Source: Herbaspirillum sp. CF444 (lineage in GTDB: Bacteria > Pseudomonadota > Gammaproteobacteria > Burkholderiales > Burkholderiaceae_D). Taken from it: a DNA stretch of 64,000 nt. Every line of letters starts with the position of its first letter. The stretch's first letter is position 1. Below the pieces are notes generated by a model that was given only the letters and a program-made list of their open reading frames with translations, was not told the origin of the DNA and ran no database searches. Made by a program: the position numbers and the translations under genes. Shown here piece after piece: positions 9,589 through 44,453 of this stretch. Location of the stretch: the NCBI RefSeq assembly GCF_000282135.1, contig NZ_AKJW01000088.1:1-64000 (forward strand), read 5' to 3'.

Positions 9589-10536
9589 TTAAGCCAGCTT
9601 GCGCCCATCAGCCAGACTGTATTCGCGGACGATTTCGTCCAGGCAGGCTGCAACATCGGTCTGCCACTGCGGCATGGCCACGGCGAAGGTCGATTCCAGT
9701 TTTGCGCCGGACAAGCGGGAATTTTGAGGGCGATGCGGCGGCACCGGATAGGTGCTGGACGGCACCGGCGTAATGGCGCCGGCGCCACCGACTTTAATCG
9801 GCACGTTCAAGGCTTGCAAGCGATCGACGATAAATGAAGCATAGCCATGCCATGAAGTTTCGCCTGCGGCAGTGAGGTTGTAGATGCCGCTGGTGCGGCG
9901 CAGGTGATCGAGGTCAATCCGTGTGCCGGGCGTCGTTTGCTGATTGACCAGCAAGCGGCGCGTCACGTCGCTGATGGTTTTCGACCATGTCGGTGCGCCG
10001 AACTGGTCGCCGACGATGGTGAATTTTTCCTGCTCTTGCGCCAGCCGAATCACGGTCTTGAGGAAGTTGCCGCCGCCGACGCTGTAGACCCAGCTGGTGC
10101 GCAATATCCAATACGCTTCGCAGTGGCGCGCAATGGCTTCTTCGCCGGCGCATTTGCTCTGGCCGTAGACATTGATCGGATGCGTCGGCGCGGCCTCGTC
10201 GTAGGGCGTATCCCGCGTGCCGTCGAAGACATAGTCGGTCGAGTAGTGCACCATCGGCGCACCCAGACGCTGGGCTTCCTCCGCGATGACGCCGGGCGCT
10301 TCGCCGTTGATGCGCATGGCCAGTTCCGGCTCGCTCTCGGCCTTGACCACTGCAGTGTAGGCGGCCGGATTGACGATCAGGTCGGGGCGCGTGGCGCGGA
10401 TGGCGTCGCGAATCTGGTCCAGGTCCGCCAGATCCATTTGCTGGCGCGAGAATGAAATGATTTCTCCGAGGCCTTGCAAACTCAGCGCCAGTTCATTGCC
10501 GATCTGGCCGCTCTGGCCGGTGAGCAGGATTTTCAT
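9589..10536 (-). CDS. rfbD: dTDP-4-dehydrorhamnose reductase
   Basis: Last step of dTDP-L-rhamnose synthesis: NADPH-dependent reduction of the 4-keto group. The 315-residue protein from ATG 10536 begins MKILLTGQSGQIGNELALSL (Rossmann motif) and has HYSTDYVFDGT, the VYGQSKCAGE catalytic Y-x3-K, RTSWVYS and a late RPQNSRLS, all standard for RmlD. One oddity: the usual TAVDKAE block reads TAVVKAE, with a Val codon at 10345-10347. The start overlaps the rfbC stop by 4 bp, so it is the last gene of the rfbG-galE-rfbBACD operon. Confidence 0.93.
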   Translation of the reverse strand: MKILLTGQSGQIGNELALSLQGLGEIISFSRQQMDLADLDQIRDAIRATRPDLIVNPAAYTAVVKAESEPELAMRINGEAPGVIAEEAQRLGAPMVHYSTDYVFDGTRDTPYDEAAPTHPINVYGQSKCAGEEAIARHCEAYWILRTSWVYSVGGGNFLKTVIRLAQEQEKFTIVGDQFGAPTWSKTISDVTRRLLVNQQTTPGTRIDLDHLRRTSGIYNLTAAGETSWHGYASFIVDRLQALNVPIKVGGAGAITPVPSSTYPVPPHRPQNSRLSGAKLESTFAVAMPQWQTDVAACLDEIVREYSLADGRKLA

Positions 10537-11078
10537 GCAAATACCTCGGCGTTCGCCAGCAGGGTTCCGTTGACGTCCTTGGCCGACAATAAGGGAGCCG
10601 CTTCCGCGCGCCAGTCGATGCCGATTGCCGGATCGTTCCAGAGGATGCAACGTTCGTGCTCGGCCATCCAGTAGTCGGTGGTCTTGTAGAGAAACTCGGC
10701 ATACTCGCTGCGCACCAGAAATCCATGGGCGAAGCCGGGCGGAATCCACATCTGCAGTTTATTTTCCGCCGACAGAATGGTGCCCGTCCATTTGCCGAAG
10801 GTCGGGGAGTTCTTGCGGATGTCGACGGCGATATCGAGCACTTCACCGACGGTAACGCGCACCAGTTTTCCTTGCGGGTGCTGGATCTGATAATGCAGTC
10901 CGCGCAAGACGTTGCGCGCCGAGCGCGAATGGTTGTCTTGTACGAAATTGGCCGTGATGCCGGTCAGTTCTGCAAAGCGGCGGGTATTGAAGCTTTCGAA
11001 GAAGAAGCCGCGGGCGTCGCCGAACACGGTCGGTTCGACAATCATGACGTCGGGAATTTCGGTGGGGATGATTTTCAT
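10533..11078 (-). CDS. rfbC: dTDP-4-dehydrorhamnose 3,5-epimerase
   Basis: 181 residues, the usual RmlC length. Motifs: FGDARGFFFESFN, QDNHSRSARNVLRGLHYQ with the catalytic-type His62, PPGFAHGFLV, and NDPAIGIDW. It converts dTDP-4-keto-6-deoxyglucose to the L-lyxo 4-keto sugar for RfbD. It lies 10 bp after rfbA and overlaps rfbD by 4 bp, so the rhamnose genes are translationally coupled here. This is the conventional RmlC of the window, in contrast to the diverged paralogue at 6042-6593. Confidence 0.94.
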   Translation of the reverse strand: MKIIPTEIPDVMIVEPTVFGDARGFFFESFNTRRFAELTGITANFVQDNHSRSARNVLRGLHYQIQHPQGKLVRVTVGEVLDIAVDIRKNSPTFGKWTGTILSAENKLQMWIPPGFAHGFLVRSEYAEFLYKTTDYWMAEHERCILWNDPAIGIDWRAEAAPLLSAKDVNGTLLANAEVFA

Positions 11079-11088
11079 GTCGGAAAGC

Positions 11089-11994
11089 TCAGTAACTCAT
11101 GTCTGTCAGCAAGCGCAGCAGGTATTGACCGTATGCGTTCTTCTTCAACGGCGCGGCCAGTGCTTCCAGTTGCTCTGCATTGATGTAGCCGCGTCGATAA
11201 GCAATCTCTTCGGGGCAGGCAACCTTCAGGCCCTGGCGTTTTTCGATGGTGGCGATGAACTGGCCGGCTTCCAGCAGCGAGTCATGGGTGCCGGTATCCA
11301 GCCATGCGATGCCGCGCCCCATCAATTCCACTTGCAACTGGTTGCGTTCCAGATAGGTGCGATTGACGTCCGTGATTTCGAGTTCGCCGCGTGCCGATGG
11401 TTTGATGCTGTCGGCAATGTCGCAGACCTGGTTGTCATAGAAGTACAGGCCCGTCACCGCGTAATTCGATTTCGGTTCGACCGGTTTTTCGACGATGCCG
11501 ATGGCGCGGCGCTGGCGATCGAATTCGACTACGCCATAACGCTCCGGGTCGGTCACGTGATAGGCGAAGACCGTCGCGCCATCTGGTGTTGCCGCTGCTG
11601 CGCGCAATTGGTTTTCAAAATCGCGGCCGTAAAAAATATTGTCGCCGAGGATCAGCGCCGACGGCGCATTGTCGATGAAACTGCGGCCGATGATGAAGGC
11701 TTGCGCCAGGCCGTCCGGCGACGGCTGCACCGCATAGCTGAGGTTCAGTCCCCACTGCGCGCCGTCGCCCAGCAGCTCGGCAAAGCGCGGCGTATCCTGC
11801 GGCGTCGAGATGATCAGGATGTCGCGGATGCCGGCCAGCATCAGGCTGGTCAGCGGGTAGTACACCATCGGCTTGTCGTAGATCGGCATGAGCTGCTTCG
11901 ACATGACCGTCGTGGCAGGATACAGGCGCGTGCCGGATCCGCCGGCGAGGATGATGCCTTTGCGGTCCGGCATCGGGCGGGTGTTGGTGTTCAT
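11089..11994 (-). CDS. rfbA: Glucose-1-phosphate thymidylyltransferase
   Basis: Forms dTDP-glucose from dTTP and glucose-1-phosphate, first step of the rhamnose pathway. The 301-residue protein has [69 protein letters not shown] and [18 protein letters not shown], all diagnostic of RmlA. The start at 11994 overlaps the rfbB stop by 4 bp. An internal Met eight codons later is also possible, since residues 1-9 are not conserved. Confidence 0.95.
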
Positions 11995-40449: not shown

Positions 40450-40612
40450 GTCATCCTCCTGATTATTTTATTGAGCGAAGACGATATCACGCAGGTTTCC
40501 CGCCATCAATCCACCGCGCCGAAATGATTGCGTCGGCGGGCGGTACGGAACATCTGATTTCCGGTTTGGGTGCGATAATAGCGGATTGCCGACTTGCTCC
40601 ACACGATCGCTC

Positions 40613-41692
40613 ATGTCTCAATTTGCTCCGCTGAAAAACGATACCTTCCTGCGCGCCTTGCTGCGTCAGCCTACCGATTACACGCCGCTGTGGCTGATGC
40701 GCCAGGCCGGCCGTTATTTGCCCGAGTACCGGGCCACGCGCGCGCGCGCCGGTTCGTTCCTGGGACTGGCGAAGAATCCCGACTACGCCACCGAGGTCAC
40801 GCTGCAACCGCTGGAGCGCTATCCGCTGGATGCGGCCATCCTGTTCTCGGACATCCTGACCGTGCCGGATGCCATGGGGCTGGGCTTGTACTTCGCCGAT
40901 GGCGAAGGTCCCAAGTTCGAGCGTCCGTTGCGTGACGAAAAAGCGGTCATGGCTTTGCAGGCGCCGCAGCTGGACAGCTTGCAGTACGTCTTCGATGCGG
41001 TGACGCAAATTCGTACCGAGCTCAATGGTCGCGTGCCGCTGATCGGCTTCTCCGGCAGCCCCTGGACGCTGGCGTGCTACATGGTGGAAGGCGGCGGCTC
41101 GGACGACTTCCGCACCGTCAAGACCATGCTCTACGATCGTCCGGATCTGATGCGTCACATCCTCAGGACCAACGCTGCCGCGGTGGCGGCCTATCTGAAT
41201 GCCCAGATCGACGCCGGTGCGCAGGCAGTGATGATCTTCGACACGTGGGGCGGTGCGTTGGCCGATGGCATTTACCAGGAATTTTCCCTGCAATACATGG
41301 CCGACGTCATGCGCCAGCTCAAGCGCGAGAAGGATGGCGTCGCCATTCCCGCGATCGTCTTTACCAAGGGCGGCGGCCTGTGGCTGGAACAGATCGCCGC
41401 GATCGGCGCCGATGCCGTCGGTCTCGACTGGACGGTCAATCTGGCCGATGCGCGCCGCCGGGTCGGCGACAAGGTTGCCTTGCAAGGCAACCTCGATCCC
41501 AACGTCCTGTTTGCCGGTCATGCGCAGATCGAGGCGGAAGTGCGCAAGTTGCTGACTTCGTTCGGCAAGCCGGCGGCCGGCAATGGCCATGTCTTCAACC
41601 TCGGGCACGGTATTTCGCAATTCACGCCGCCCGAAGCCGTGACCGTGCTGGTGGACGCTGTCCACAGTATCAGTCGGGAATTGCGCCAATAA
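40613..41692 (+). CDS. hemE: Uroporphyrinogen decarboxylase
   Basis: 359 residues. It has [20 protein letters not shown] (N-terminal signature), [16 protein letters not shown] and [21 protein letters not shown] (second signature). It decarboxylates uroporphyrinogen III to coproporphyrinogen III in haem synthesis. GATAAT at 40574-40579 with an upstream TG could be an extended -10. The gene is followed by the DnaA-box repeat region and priA. Confidence 0.96.
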
Positions 41693-41767
41693 GGTGAAGA
41701 TTCCTGCGGGAAGCGGGAAATCTACCCGGGCGCATGCAAAAAGAGCGAATTTTAATAATTTGCCATC

Positions 41768-42025
41768 ACTTATGCACAAAGCAGGCGCTTTTTTTAGTAG
41801 GAATCATTCATATCCATATTTATAATTTGATGGATTTTGATTTCTCTCAAGTCATTGATTTTAAATGTGTTTATTTCTTGCATCGGTTTTGTGCAAACTA
41901 TCGAGACCCGCATGAAATGTGGGCCGCGGGGCTGTCAAGAGGGACTTGCCCACAAAGTTATCCACAGGATTTGTGGATAGTTGAAAAAGCACTTATGAAA
42001 CCGTGAGTTACGCATACTTTTCAAG
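41768..42025 (+). repeat. Origin-like repeat unit, copy A
   Basis: Order of elements shared with copy B: CTTATGCACAAA, AAGTC-A-TTGATTTTAAA, A-ACCCGC-type block, TGTCAAG, CACAAAGTTATCCACAG, TGTGGATAG-T-TGAAAAAG, TTATGAAACCGT-GAGTTA, CTTTTCA. Corresponding elements are offset 376-380 bp from copy B. Confidence 0.8.
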
Positions 42026-42147
42026 TTCTACTTGAGAAACATTCTAGAATTCCTGCGACCGTGTCAGGAGTTGCCTGACAAATTTTTCTTGACAGAAACT
42101 GGTGCGAACGATCTCGCTGCGATGCCGTTTCGGTGCGAAATATCGGG

Positions 42148-42401
42148 ACTTATGCACAAAATTGCTTTTGTGCGCGGCAATAATAAAAAATTAAAATTTT
42201 TTTTCAGGTTCTCGCCTGGCTTTTATAAGTCTTTGATTTTAAACAAACTAAATTTTGCTTTTGATTTAGGCAATTTATTGAAACCCGCGTCCAGACTGGC
42301 GAAAAACTTGTCAAGGCCGAGTTGTGCACAAAGTTATCCACAGCTTATGTGGATAGCTGAAAAAGTAGTTATGAAACCGTTAGTTAGGTCACCTTTTCAG
42401 G
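42148..42401 (+). repeat. Origin-like repeat unit, copy B
   Basis: Second copy, ending 15 bp before the priA start. The 8-bp inverted repeat TATCCACA/TGTGGATA is conserved in both copies, while its 5-base centre differs (GGATT in A, GCTTA here). That suggests selection on the paired boxes. Confidence 0.8.
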
Positions 42402-42416
42402 AATTACATTAAGTTC

Positions 42417-44453
42417 GTGGAACAACGCATACTTCAGATCGCACTCGATACCCCGCTTGACAGGATTTTCGACTATCGCTGGCGCGCCGGTGCTGACGAG
42501 GCCGAGCCGCAAGTCGGGCAACTGGCGATCGTGCCTTTCGGCCGGCGCGAAGTGGCGGGGTTGATCGTCGGGATGGCCGATCAGACCGATGTGCCGGCGG
42601 ACAAACTCAAGGATGTCATCGCCGTGCGCAGCCAGCTGTCGCCGTTGTCGGCGCAATGGCGGGCGTTGTGCAGTTTCGCCGCCGATTATTACCAGCGTCC
42701 TCTGGGCGAGGTCGCGCTTCCGGGCCTGCCCAAGAATCTGCGCATGCTCACCACGACCGCATTGGATCGGGCCCTGAAAAAGCTGGGCAAGCTGAGCGCC
42801 GGCCATGACGGCAGCCCCGTCAATACGCCGCAACTGAAACCCGAGCAGCAAGAGGCGGTCGACGCCATCGCCACGGCGCAGGGTTTTGCGCCGCTGCTGC
42901 TGTATGGCGTCACCGGCAGCGGCAAGACCGAGGTCTACCTGCAGGCGGCCGCGCGCATTCTGGCGCAAAGCGAAGCTGTCGGCGAGGTTGCACAGATCCT
43001 CGTGCTGGTGCCGGAAATCAACCTGACGCCGCAGCTTGAATCGAATATCCGCGCGCGTTTTCCCGGCGTGCACGTGGTCAGCCTGCACAGCGGCCTGGCC
43101 GAAGGCGAGCGCACGCTCAACTGGCTGGCGGCGCATCAGGGCCAGGCGCGCATCGTGCTCGGCACGCGCCTGGCGATCCTGTCCTCGCTGCCGCATCTCA
43201 AGCTGATCGTCATCGACGAAGAGCACGACCCGTCCTACAAGCAGCAGGAGGGCTTGCGCTATTCCGCGCGCGACCTGGCGGTGTGGCGCGCGCATCAACT
43301 GGGGATTCCGGTAGTGCTGGGCTCGGCCACGCCGTCGCTGGAAACCTGGCAGCACACGCAAGCCGGGCGCTATCGCAAACTGCAGCTGCGCGAACGCGCA
43401 GTGCGCGACGCCGTGCTGCCCACCGTGAAGATGATCGACATGGAGCGCGACCGCCCCAACGACGGCCTGACCTCTACGCTGGTCGCGGCGCTGAAGCTGC
43501 GCCTGGAGCGCGGCGAGCAGTCGCTGCTGTTCCTCAACCGGCGCGGCTATGCGCCGGTGCTCAATTGCGACGCCTGCGGCTGGATCAGCAACTGCATGCG
43601 CTGCACCTCGTTCATGGTGCTGCACAAACCGGAGCGGCGCCTGCGTTGCCACCATTGCAGCCTGGAACTGTATATTCCAAAAGCTTGTCCGACCTGCGGC
43701 AACGTTGACCTGCAGCCGCTGGGTCGCGGCACCCAGCGCGTCGAGGAAGGCTTGCAGGCGATGTTCCCCGAGGCGCGCGTCTTGCGCATCGATGCCGATT
43801 CGACCCGACTCAAGGGCGCGGCGCAGAACGCTTTCGACAGCGTGCATCGCGGCGAGGTGGACATCCTGATCGGCACGCAGATGGTCGCCAAGGGGCACGA
43901 CTTCAAACGCCTGACCCTGGTCGGCGTGATGAATCCGGACACGGCGTTGTTTTCGCATGACTACCGCGCCAGCGAGCGCCTGTTCGCGCAGCTCATGCAG
44001 GTTGCGGGCCGGGCCGGCCGCGCCGGGCAAAAAGAGGGCGGTTCTCCCAGCGAAGTGCTGATCCAGAGTCGCTATCCGCATCATCCCTTGTACGGCGCGG
44101 TGGCGGCGCACGACTATGACGGCTTTGCCACCCAGTTGCTGGAAGAACGCCAGCAGGCAGCGTTGCCGCCATTCATCTATCAGGCGCTGTTACGTGCCGA
44201 AGCCGCCGAAATCGATACCGCCCTGACCTTCCTGAAGGACGCGGCCGGTTGTCTGGAACATCCCGGCATCACCATCAACGATCCGATTCCCATGACCATG
44301 ACGCGCGTGGCCAATGTGGAACGCGCGCAATTGCTGATCGAATGCGCCTCGCGGCCGGCGCTGCAAGCCTTTCTGCGCGACTGGCTGGATGTGTTGCGGC
44401 AGATGAAGACGCGCGCCAAATGGTCGCTGGAAGTCGATCCAGTCGATATTTGA
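42417..44453 (+). CDS. priA: Primosomal protein N' (PriA helicase)
   Basis: 678 residues with a GTG start at 42417. The N-terminal DNA-binding domain (RILQIALDTPLDRIFDYRW, PFGRREVAGLIVGM) precedes the helicase. Walker A is GVTGSGKTEVYL (about 164-175), the DEAH-type box is IDEEHDPSYKQQEG (about 266-279), and the zinc-binding cysteines begin at CDACG (about 384), with NCMRC, RCHHC and CPTCG. QMVAKGHDFKRLTLVGV and QVAGRAGRAG are late helicase motifs. PriA restarts collapsed forks. The DnaA-box repeats end just upstream, so DnaA-linked control is plausible. Confidence 0.96.
   Translation: MEQRILQIALDTPLDRIFDYRWRAGADEAEPQVGQLAIVPFGRREVAGLIVGMADQTDVPADKLKDVIAVRSQLSPLSAQWRALCSFAADYYQRPLGEVALPGLPKNLRMLTTTALDRALKKLGKLSAGHDGSPVNTPQLKPEQQEAVDAIATAQGFAPLLLYGVTGSGKTEVYLQAAARILAQSEAVGEVAQILVLVPEINLTPQLESNIRARFPGVHVVSLHSGLAEGERTLNWLAAHQGQARIVLGTRLAILSSLPHLKLIVIDEEHDPSYKQQEGLRYSARDLAVWRAHQLGIPVVLGSATPSLETWQHTQAGRYRKLQLRERAVRDAVLPTVKMIDMERDRPNDGLTSTLVAALKLRLERGEQSLLFLNRRGYAPVLNCDACGWISNCMRCTSFMVLHKPERRLRCHHCSLELYIPKACPTCGNVDLQPLGRGTQRVEEGLQAMFPEARVLRIDADSTRLKGAAQNAFDSVHRGEVDILIGTQMVAKGHDFKRLTLVGVMNPDTALFSHDYRASERLFAQLMQVAGRAGRAGQKEGGSPSEVLIQSRYPHHPLYGAVAAHDYDGFATQLLEERQQAALPPFIYQALLRAEAAEIDTALTFLKDAAGCLEHPGITINDPIPMTMTRVANVERAQLLIECASRPALQAFLRDWLDVLRQMKTRAKWSLEVDPVDI

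Follow-up and report, generated by a model that had tools for sequence, protein, structure and literature searches.

Between hemE, whose last position is 41692, and priA, which begins at 42417, the 64,000-nucleotide stretch of DNA that was analysed (the window) has an intergenic gap of 724 bp (41693–42416). To the left of the gap, on the plus strand, are atpB, atpA and atpD, assigned by curated families. The gap contains two tandem copies of a unit with an outer DnaA box, an IHF site and three closely set DnaA boxes, all predicted (Table 1). An AT-rich stretch sits between the outer box and the IHF site. The priA start lies 60 bp beyond the end of box I in unit 2. A further block, AAAAAG....TATGAAACCG, follows on the 3′ side of box I and is kept in both copies across the genus.

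Table 1. Genes bordering the hemE–priA gap and predicted sites within it (window coordinates).
Feature	Position	Strand	Basis
hemE (uroporphyrinogen decarboxylase), left neighbour	40586..41692	+	TIGR01464, E 2.4e-125; start codon predicted
Unit 1 outer DnaA box TTATGCACA	41770..41778	+	predicted; box near same place in genus, family and class loci
Unit 1 IHF site AATCAATGACTTG	41848..41860	-	predicted; exact WATCAANNNNTTR consensus
Unit 1 weak DnaA box TTGCCCACA	41946..41954	+	predicted; DARS box III position
Unit 1 DnaA box TTATCCACA	41958..41966	+	predicted; DARS box II position
Unit 1 DnaA box CTATCCACA	41972..41980	-	predicted; DARS box I position, head-to-head with box II across GGATT
Unit 1 conserved block AAAAAG....TATGAAACCG	41984..42003	+	
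Unit 2 outer DnaA box TTATGCACA	42150..42158	+	predicted
Unit 2 IHF site AATCAAAGACTTA	42226..42238	-	predicted; exact WATCAANNNNTTR consensus
Unit 2 weak DnaA box TTGTGCACA	42322..42330	+	predicted; DARS box III position
Unit 2 DnaA box TTATCCACA	42334..42342	+	predicted; DARS box II position
Unit 2 DnaA box CTATCCACA	42348..42356	-	predicted; DARS box I position, head-to-head with box II across GCTTA
Unit 2 conserved block AAAAAG....TATGAAACCG	42360..42379	+	
priA (primosomal protein N'), right neighbour	42417..44453	+	TIGR00595, E 2.5e-161; predicted GTG start

The presence of two diverged copies of a DnaA-box unit, offset by 376–380 bp, was proposed in a first-pass annotation and is borne out. 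A repeat search returned a 91-nt family with 80% identity at 41933 and 42309 (spacing 376); the TTATGCACA blocks (41770 and 42150) are 380 apart, the AAGTC(A/T)TTGATTTTAAA blocks 378, and TGTGGATAG occurs at 41972 and 42348. The arms of the inverted pair are, as had also been claimed, kept while the 5-nt centres differ (GGATT in unit 1, GCTTA in unit 2). That annotation overlooked that both copies contain an exact IHF consensus and, 12 bp before TTATCCACA, a third and weaker box (at 41946 and 42322). With the third box, the inverted pair becomes a box I–II–III triad as in E. coli DARS1 and DARS2. Expressed as differences of first coordinates, the distance from the outer box to the IHF site is 78 bp in unit 1 and 76 bp in unit 2, and that from the IHF site to box III is 98 and 96 bp; box III precedes box II by 12 bp (a 3-nt gap), and box II precedes the opposed box I by 14 bp (a 5-nt gap). 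The outer box lies about 188 bp before box II.

These sites are concentrated in the gap. Nine sites within one mismatch of TTATCCACA occur in the window, six of them in the gap, and the only two exact matches to the IHF consensus in the window are those at 41848 and 42226 on the minus strand, one per unit. When the 724 bp were shuffled (single bases), the box triad appeared in none of 2000 trials; 40 stretches of 20 kb from a related complete genome (ca. 780 kb after overlap) yielded only the two triads of the same locus. The gap had no match in a plasmid collection. Triads were also seen at two other places. At 1507–1596 of stretch L106 (contig C83:101714), a triad has an exact IHF site that is reversed in orientation and nearer to box III. 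At 9813–9847 of stretch L062 (contig C18:320800), in a gap between apparent xseA and exbB genes (by eye), the triad TTGTTCACA, TTATGCACA, TGTGGGTAA has no exact IHF site and is, by its boxes, a candidate DARS1-like element.

Both copies and their inverted pairs are kept in the genus with few exceptions. The gap DNA has a match in all 34 same-genus genomes, the host included, and in the 30 genus loci that were read the order and spacing of the sites are preserved with few exceptions, some boxes being altered; L012 lacks the opposed box in unit 1, and in L024 the offset is shorter. These 30 loci contain 54 exact IHF sites, in which the four N positions vary and the fixed bases stay. Their 58 triads are accompanied by 58 outer boxes (−183 to −189) and 53 exact IHF sites (−108 to −110). 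Beyond the genus, 40 family triads have 39 such IHF sites, at −108 to −111. Of the 58 units, 55 are most similar to the same copy in another genome; comparisons within a copy give mean identities of 0.594 (copy 1) and 0.652 (copy 2), against 0.553–0.565 between copies. Judged from sequence, the tandem duplication is older than the genus.

Wider conservation was assessed with a sequence-only profile (R1) of 185 positions, running from the IHF site to past box I and trained on the 58 units from the 30 genus loci; its E-values are rough. In the host genome, R1 recovers the two units at 1e-38 and 2e-36, the next match being at 1.5e-5. All 145 genomes of the family sample match; eight of these belong to the same genus, so that 137/137 genomes of other genera do. 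The class sample gave 305 matches among 369 genomes, or 304 of 368 without the host, and the phylum sample 121 of 200. Outside the class, 74 of about 149 phylum genomes are among the matches listed (39 in one family, the remaining 35 mostly weaker), and R1 is therefore not class-specific. A reversed profile (R2, built from 20 of the 58 units) matched 0 of 143 genomes of the class, which demonstrates a low background but not the sensitivity of R2 itself, as no genome is known to match it.

Loci were fetched from the best scores, 30 from the family and 16 from the class and phylum. Among the best 30 family loci, priA and/or hemE lies beside the match in 27, including 20 of the 23 from outside the genus; the exceptions are L077, L094 and L096. 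Copy number and arrangement vary. Three tandem copies occur in a Nitrosomonas contig (L177, cores 246 bp apart), and the family genomes G054 and G111 have three matches each within about 1 kb. Some family genomes have paired units separated by ca. 3.4–3.6 kb, which surround a UvrD/Rep-like helicase gene in L228 and L230 (of the set L227–L230), or by ca. 1.05 kb, as in L227; neither hemE nor priA was present in the stretches fetched for L227, L228, L229 and L230.

The IHF site was also tested independently of the profile, using loci selected solely for the triad core (pattern CAAAGTTATCCACANNNNNTGTGNATAR); there are at least 116 such loci, of which a non-random 80 were used. Of the 85 cores in this set, 79 were testable, having 140 nt or more upstream, and 34 of these 79 have an exact IHF consensus on the minus strand, 104–116 bp before box II. 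Within 400 bp on either side of the 85 cores there are 45 exact minus-strand sites and two on the plus strand; of the 45, 34 are in the usual place, six in the place expected from a tandem neighbour, four in a mirror position (+88 to +91) and one elsewhere. In the mirror layout (L124, L144, L148 and L155), the triad has its exact IHF site on the opposite flank, +88 to +91 from box II. L149, L153 and L183 have an exact core in contigs labelled Lentilactobacillus, Cohnella and Nocardiopsis, with no IHF site at the usual place; contamination or chance is suspected for these three cores. The outer box is outside the profile, yet the 17 triads of the 16 class and phylum loci picked from the best hits have a plus-strand TTWTNCACA at −187 to −191 in 13 cases and a minus-strand one once; an exact IHF site at −109 to −111 is found in eight.

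Conserved Fis sites were looked for as well. No exact consensus was found in the gap, and sites within one mismatch of the consensus, itself weak, occurred on the expected side in 23 of 53 units compared with 44 of 53 for a control stretch; these two scans do not support conserved Fis sites, and Fis may still have a role. The host genome encodes IHF-alpha and IHF-beta, both above curated cut-offs; a Fis-family stretch and an Hda-like stretch, searched as partial queries, both scored below them.

The first-pass annotation put forward an origin-like element as one reading of the cluster, and the distance to dnaA, the box cluster near dnaA and the GC skew do not support it. In seven of seven complete same-genus genomes, the gap is 495–828 kb from dnaA. 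In the host's own draft genome, dnaA is on contig C82 (ORF 10476–11903, minus strand), and within 7 kb upstream of it there is an origin-like cluster of two module copies, 761 bp apart, with TTATCCACA boxes, CTACTACTACTA runs and then AT-rich DNA. We take these runs to resemble the DnaA-trio of other bacteria. An exact scan for the CTACTACT (trio) motif found two in this dnaA-side cluster and none in the 64-kb window. In complete same-genus genomes, 20 kb beside dnaA contain two trio-like runs in G016, G006 and G011 and one in G012, G033 and G007; in G031, the exact motif is absent from these 20 kb. The duplicated modules on C82 (17541–18600 of stretch L061), each with inverted TTATCCACA boxes and a CTACTACTACTA run plus AT-rich DNA, mean that the likely oriC is itself duplicated; they flank a small ORF that appears ferredoxin-like by eye.

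Cumulative GC skew points the same way. In the complete genome G016, it is lowest near dnaA, the sampled minimum falling in the stretch centred 58 kb past this gene, and the gap lies on the ascending part of the curve, ca. 540 kb along. Between position 0 and 520 kb, on the way to the gap, 21 of 25 stretches of 20 kb have positive skew; the seven stretches immediately left of dnaA average near zero. A coarse table had suggested a clean switch near position 0; finer sampling was noisy, and the fuller set of stretches gave the minimum quoted. Skew in G012 was too noisy for placing a minimum. Within the window, the skew does not turn from minus to plus at the gap; it shows a local dip that ends near 50 kb. 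On the strength of the dnaA distance, the trio-like motifs near dnaA and the skew, the gap was rejected as the main origin. The AT-rich stretch between outer box and IHF site, together with the oriC-like mix of DnaA and IHF sites, would suit an origin of some kind; set against the lack of the trio motif and of a skew turn, an origin here, whether main or a second one that is silent or conditional, is extremely improbable.

Control of priA by DnaA was another possibility raised at the outset. Here, the gap would be a DnaA–IHF operator of priA (or of hemE–priA transcription), coupling the restart helicase to the replication cycle. A priA gene is present in the stretch for 28 of the 80 named core loci (from at least 116), and in all 28 the core is 63–541 bp upstream of its estimated start and on the same strand. 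These loci range from Duganella, Collimonas and Herminiimonas to Cycloclasticus, Dyella and Chromatiales contigs, and gammaproteobacterial ones are included. Among the class loci fetched, eight of 14 are by priA, all upstream on its strand, and the 60 bp between box I of unit 2 and priA in the host would also be suitable for an operator. The association with priA is not exclusive, other copies being away from it. In 52 of the 80 named core loci there is no priA match in the stretch, some stretches being short, and the same geometry occurs beside other genes. Triads with an exact IHF site accompany genes for UvrD/Rep-type helicases (L228, L230), T2SSC (L237), a HerA-like protein (L240), adenylosuccinate synthetase (L242) and RNase H (L246); triads without one are found in L241 (by genes for QRPTase and a TRAM radical-SAM protein) and L245 (by COQ7). 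The scanned priA region of E. coli has no triad, and DARS2 is located elsewhere. An operator function is thus quite improbable as the primary explanation. The position upstream of priA is perhaps a favoured, and perhaps the ancestral, place of a cis element that moved in evolution, as its distribution would suggest.

The remaining suggestion of the first-pass annotation, a datA- or DARS-like element, is well supported by the IHF sites, the triad spacing and the deep conservation. We favour its DARS form: going by site arrangement, the gap on balance probably holds two tandem IHF-assisted DARS-type elements that reactivate DnaA. In E. coli, ADP-DnaA molecules paired head-to-head on boxes I and II release ADP, and the resulting apo-DnaA reloads with ATP, allowing a new round at oriC. 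By analogy, we infer DnaA binding, IHF binding and ADP release in the gap. DnaA would fill the triad III–II–I with boxes I and II facing each other; IHF would bend the DNA between triad and outer box, bringing bound DnaA molecules together; the opposed pair I–II would favour release of ADP; and apo-DnaA would take up ATP again and initiate another round at oriC, presumably timed to the cell cycle. The two copies may provide dosage or cooperativity.

The triad spacing, which equals that of DARS1 and DARS2, and the better matches of R1 to these two loci than to datA argue for a DARS-type function. A number of points argue against it. No Fis sites were seen, though E. coli DARS2 needs them; the 96–98 bp from IHF site to box III are nearer to the 97 bp from IHF site to box 3 in datA than to the 87 bp in DARS2; only eight of the 17 best class and phylum triads have the exact IHF site (−109 to −111); the dnaA distance in the genus resembles that of E. 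coli datA more than that of DARS2; and the frequent location just before priA would be compatible with a role in transcription.

Several of these points lead to the main rival, a datA-like element: either ATP-DnaA would assemble on its IHF-bent DNA and lose activity through ATP hydrolysis, or the element would, once replicated, do no more than titrate DnaA. Because geometry alone cannot tell hydrolysis from exchange, such an outcome is somewhat doubtful rather than remote. The succession outer box, IHF site, inner box with 76–78 and 96–98 bp is close to the 77 and 97 bp of datA, with the same IHF orientation; R1 weakly matches the datA box pair 733/745; and the six boxes with at most one mismatch in these 724 bp would make the gap a titrating site for DnaA. 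The 495–828 kb between gap and dnaA in the genus are comparable to the ca. 0.47 Mb given for datA and oriC (PMC5742627), and position effects of datA and the DARS loci are described in PMC4585315. This position is not kept across the family, however: R1 matches in other family genomes are ca. 18 kb to ca. 1.9 Mb (1.86 Mb) from dnaA. Location at hemE–priA was confirmed for G126 (18 kb from dnaA), G156 (183 kb) and G062 (312 kb); the profile matches in G080 are not at hemE–priA. A constant distance from oriC was considered as a sign of function and rejected, as 495–828 kb on either arm would be the outcome of symmetric inversions alone. Furthermore, datA has no III–II–I triad, which is included in the part conserved class-wide, and its boxes 907 and 919 are opposed across 3 nt, unlike those of the gap units.

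Finally, the order outer box, ca. 78 bp, IHF site, ca. 97 bp, III–II–I, which in many cases sits next to priA, could be the original form of the DnaA nucleotide switch in gamma-, beta- and perhaps zetaproteobacteria; datA (left half and IHF site) and DARS2 (triad and IHF site) would be specialised remnants derived from it. One intact element might then toggle between hydrolysis and reloading, depending on IHF and on the ATP or ADP form of DnaA. This scenario is unlikely.

Returning to the DARS-type reading, the element would be of DARS type and not a strict DARS2. Boxes I and II in head-to-head orientation are characteristic of DARSs and essential (PMC10380432; also PMC8682772). DARS2 needs IHF at IBS1–2 and Fis at FBS2–3, with spacing being important, and the same source ties Fis and the DARS2 core to E. 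coli-related gammaproteobacteria (PMC4245941). Its detailed conservation is described for that group (PMC4245941, PMC8682772), and a review refers to E. coli-proximal beta- or gammaproteobacteria (PMC5742627). The geometry thus appears to be kept more widely than the relevant parts of these sources describe. A search of titles and abstract openings found no paper treating DARS in the host's group and none on DARS at hemE–priA. A broader statement, that DARS1/DARS2-like sequences are kept in many proteobacterial species, is made in PMC10380432 with its reference 91, presumably the 2009 DARS paper, as the source; the triad core itself may therefore have been published before for related bacteria.

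If DARS activity is as proposed, a DnaA reloading site with a set IHF geometry would be present in all sampled genomes of the family (145/145) and in most of the class sample (305/369). The conserved geometry offers a sequence rule for finding the element, and makes it possible to ask whether DnaA recharging outside enterobacteria depends on IHF and not on Fis, and why a tandem pair is kept. The control circuit known from E. coli may be more general, and differently built, than thought.

Known systems share different parts of this architecture. Bacillus subtilis has intergenic DnaA-box clusters away from oriC, and in this respect the gap is similar to them. B. subtilis is said to lack IHF as well as datA and DARS loci (PMC13220808). 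For E. coli, the scan applied to the gap finds the triad in DARS1 (TTATCCACT, TGTGGATAA, TGTGTATTA) and DARS2, and not in datA. Both units have the arrangement of a DARS core, with boxes I and II head-to-head, box III behind box II, and the spacing of DARS1 and DARS2. When R1 was run against E. coli loci (9.7 kb searched), it matched DARS1 at E 1e-6 and the DARS2 core at 1.3e-5. It also matched a degenerate unit 316 bp from the DARS2 core (5.4e-6), which suggests that DARS2 may once have been a tandem too. In datA, the match to the box pair 733/745 is weak (2.2e-4), and the IHF part, at 3.7, is not significant.

The gap resembles DARS2, situated between rppH and mutH, in having a triad with 5-nt and 3-nt gaps and an IHF-like site that is on the same side as box III and oriented like the one at 745 of the E. 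coli stretch (L070), which was read as IBS2 on account of the 3 bp separating it from the other site. At 941–1087 of the same K-12 stretch, a second, degenerate IHF–triad unit slightly outscores the DARS2 core. Differences from DARS2 are more numerous: the IHF site is 96–98 bp from box III, ca. 10 bp further than the 87 bp there; one exact IHF consensus replaces two one-mismatch sites; DARS2 needs Fis sites, whereas none is supported here; and the gap has an outer DnaA box 76–78 bp beyond the IHF site, two full tandem copies, and hemE and priA instead of rppH and mutH as neighbours. DARS1, in the bioD–uvrB gap, has equal triad spacing and an identical box II, and its linker GGAAT compares with GGATT in unit 1; in contrast to the gap, no IHF site with one mismatch or fewer is present in the stretch scanned. 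datA lacks a head-to-head triad, its boxes 907 and 919 facing each other across 3 nt; the naming of its boxes (7 or 2) was inferred from the order in PMC5742627. Its box at 733 is followed after 77 bp by an IHF site of the same orientation and after a further 97 bp by the box at 907, compared with 76–78 and 96–98 bp here. The units have the triad in common with DARS and the outer spacing in common with datA.
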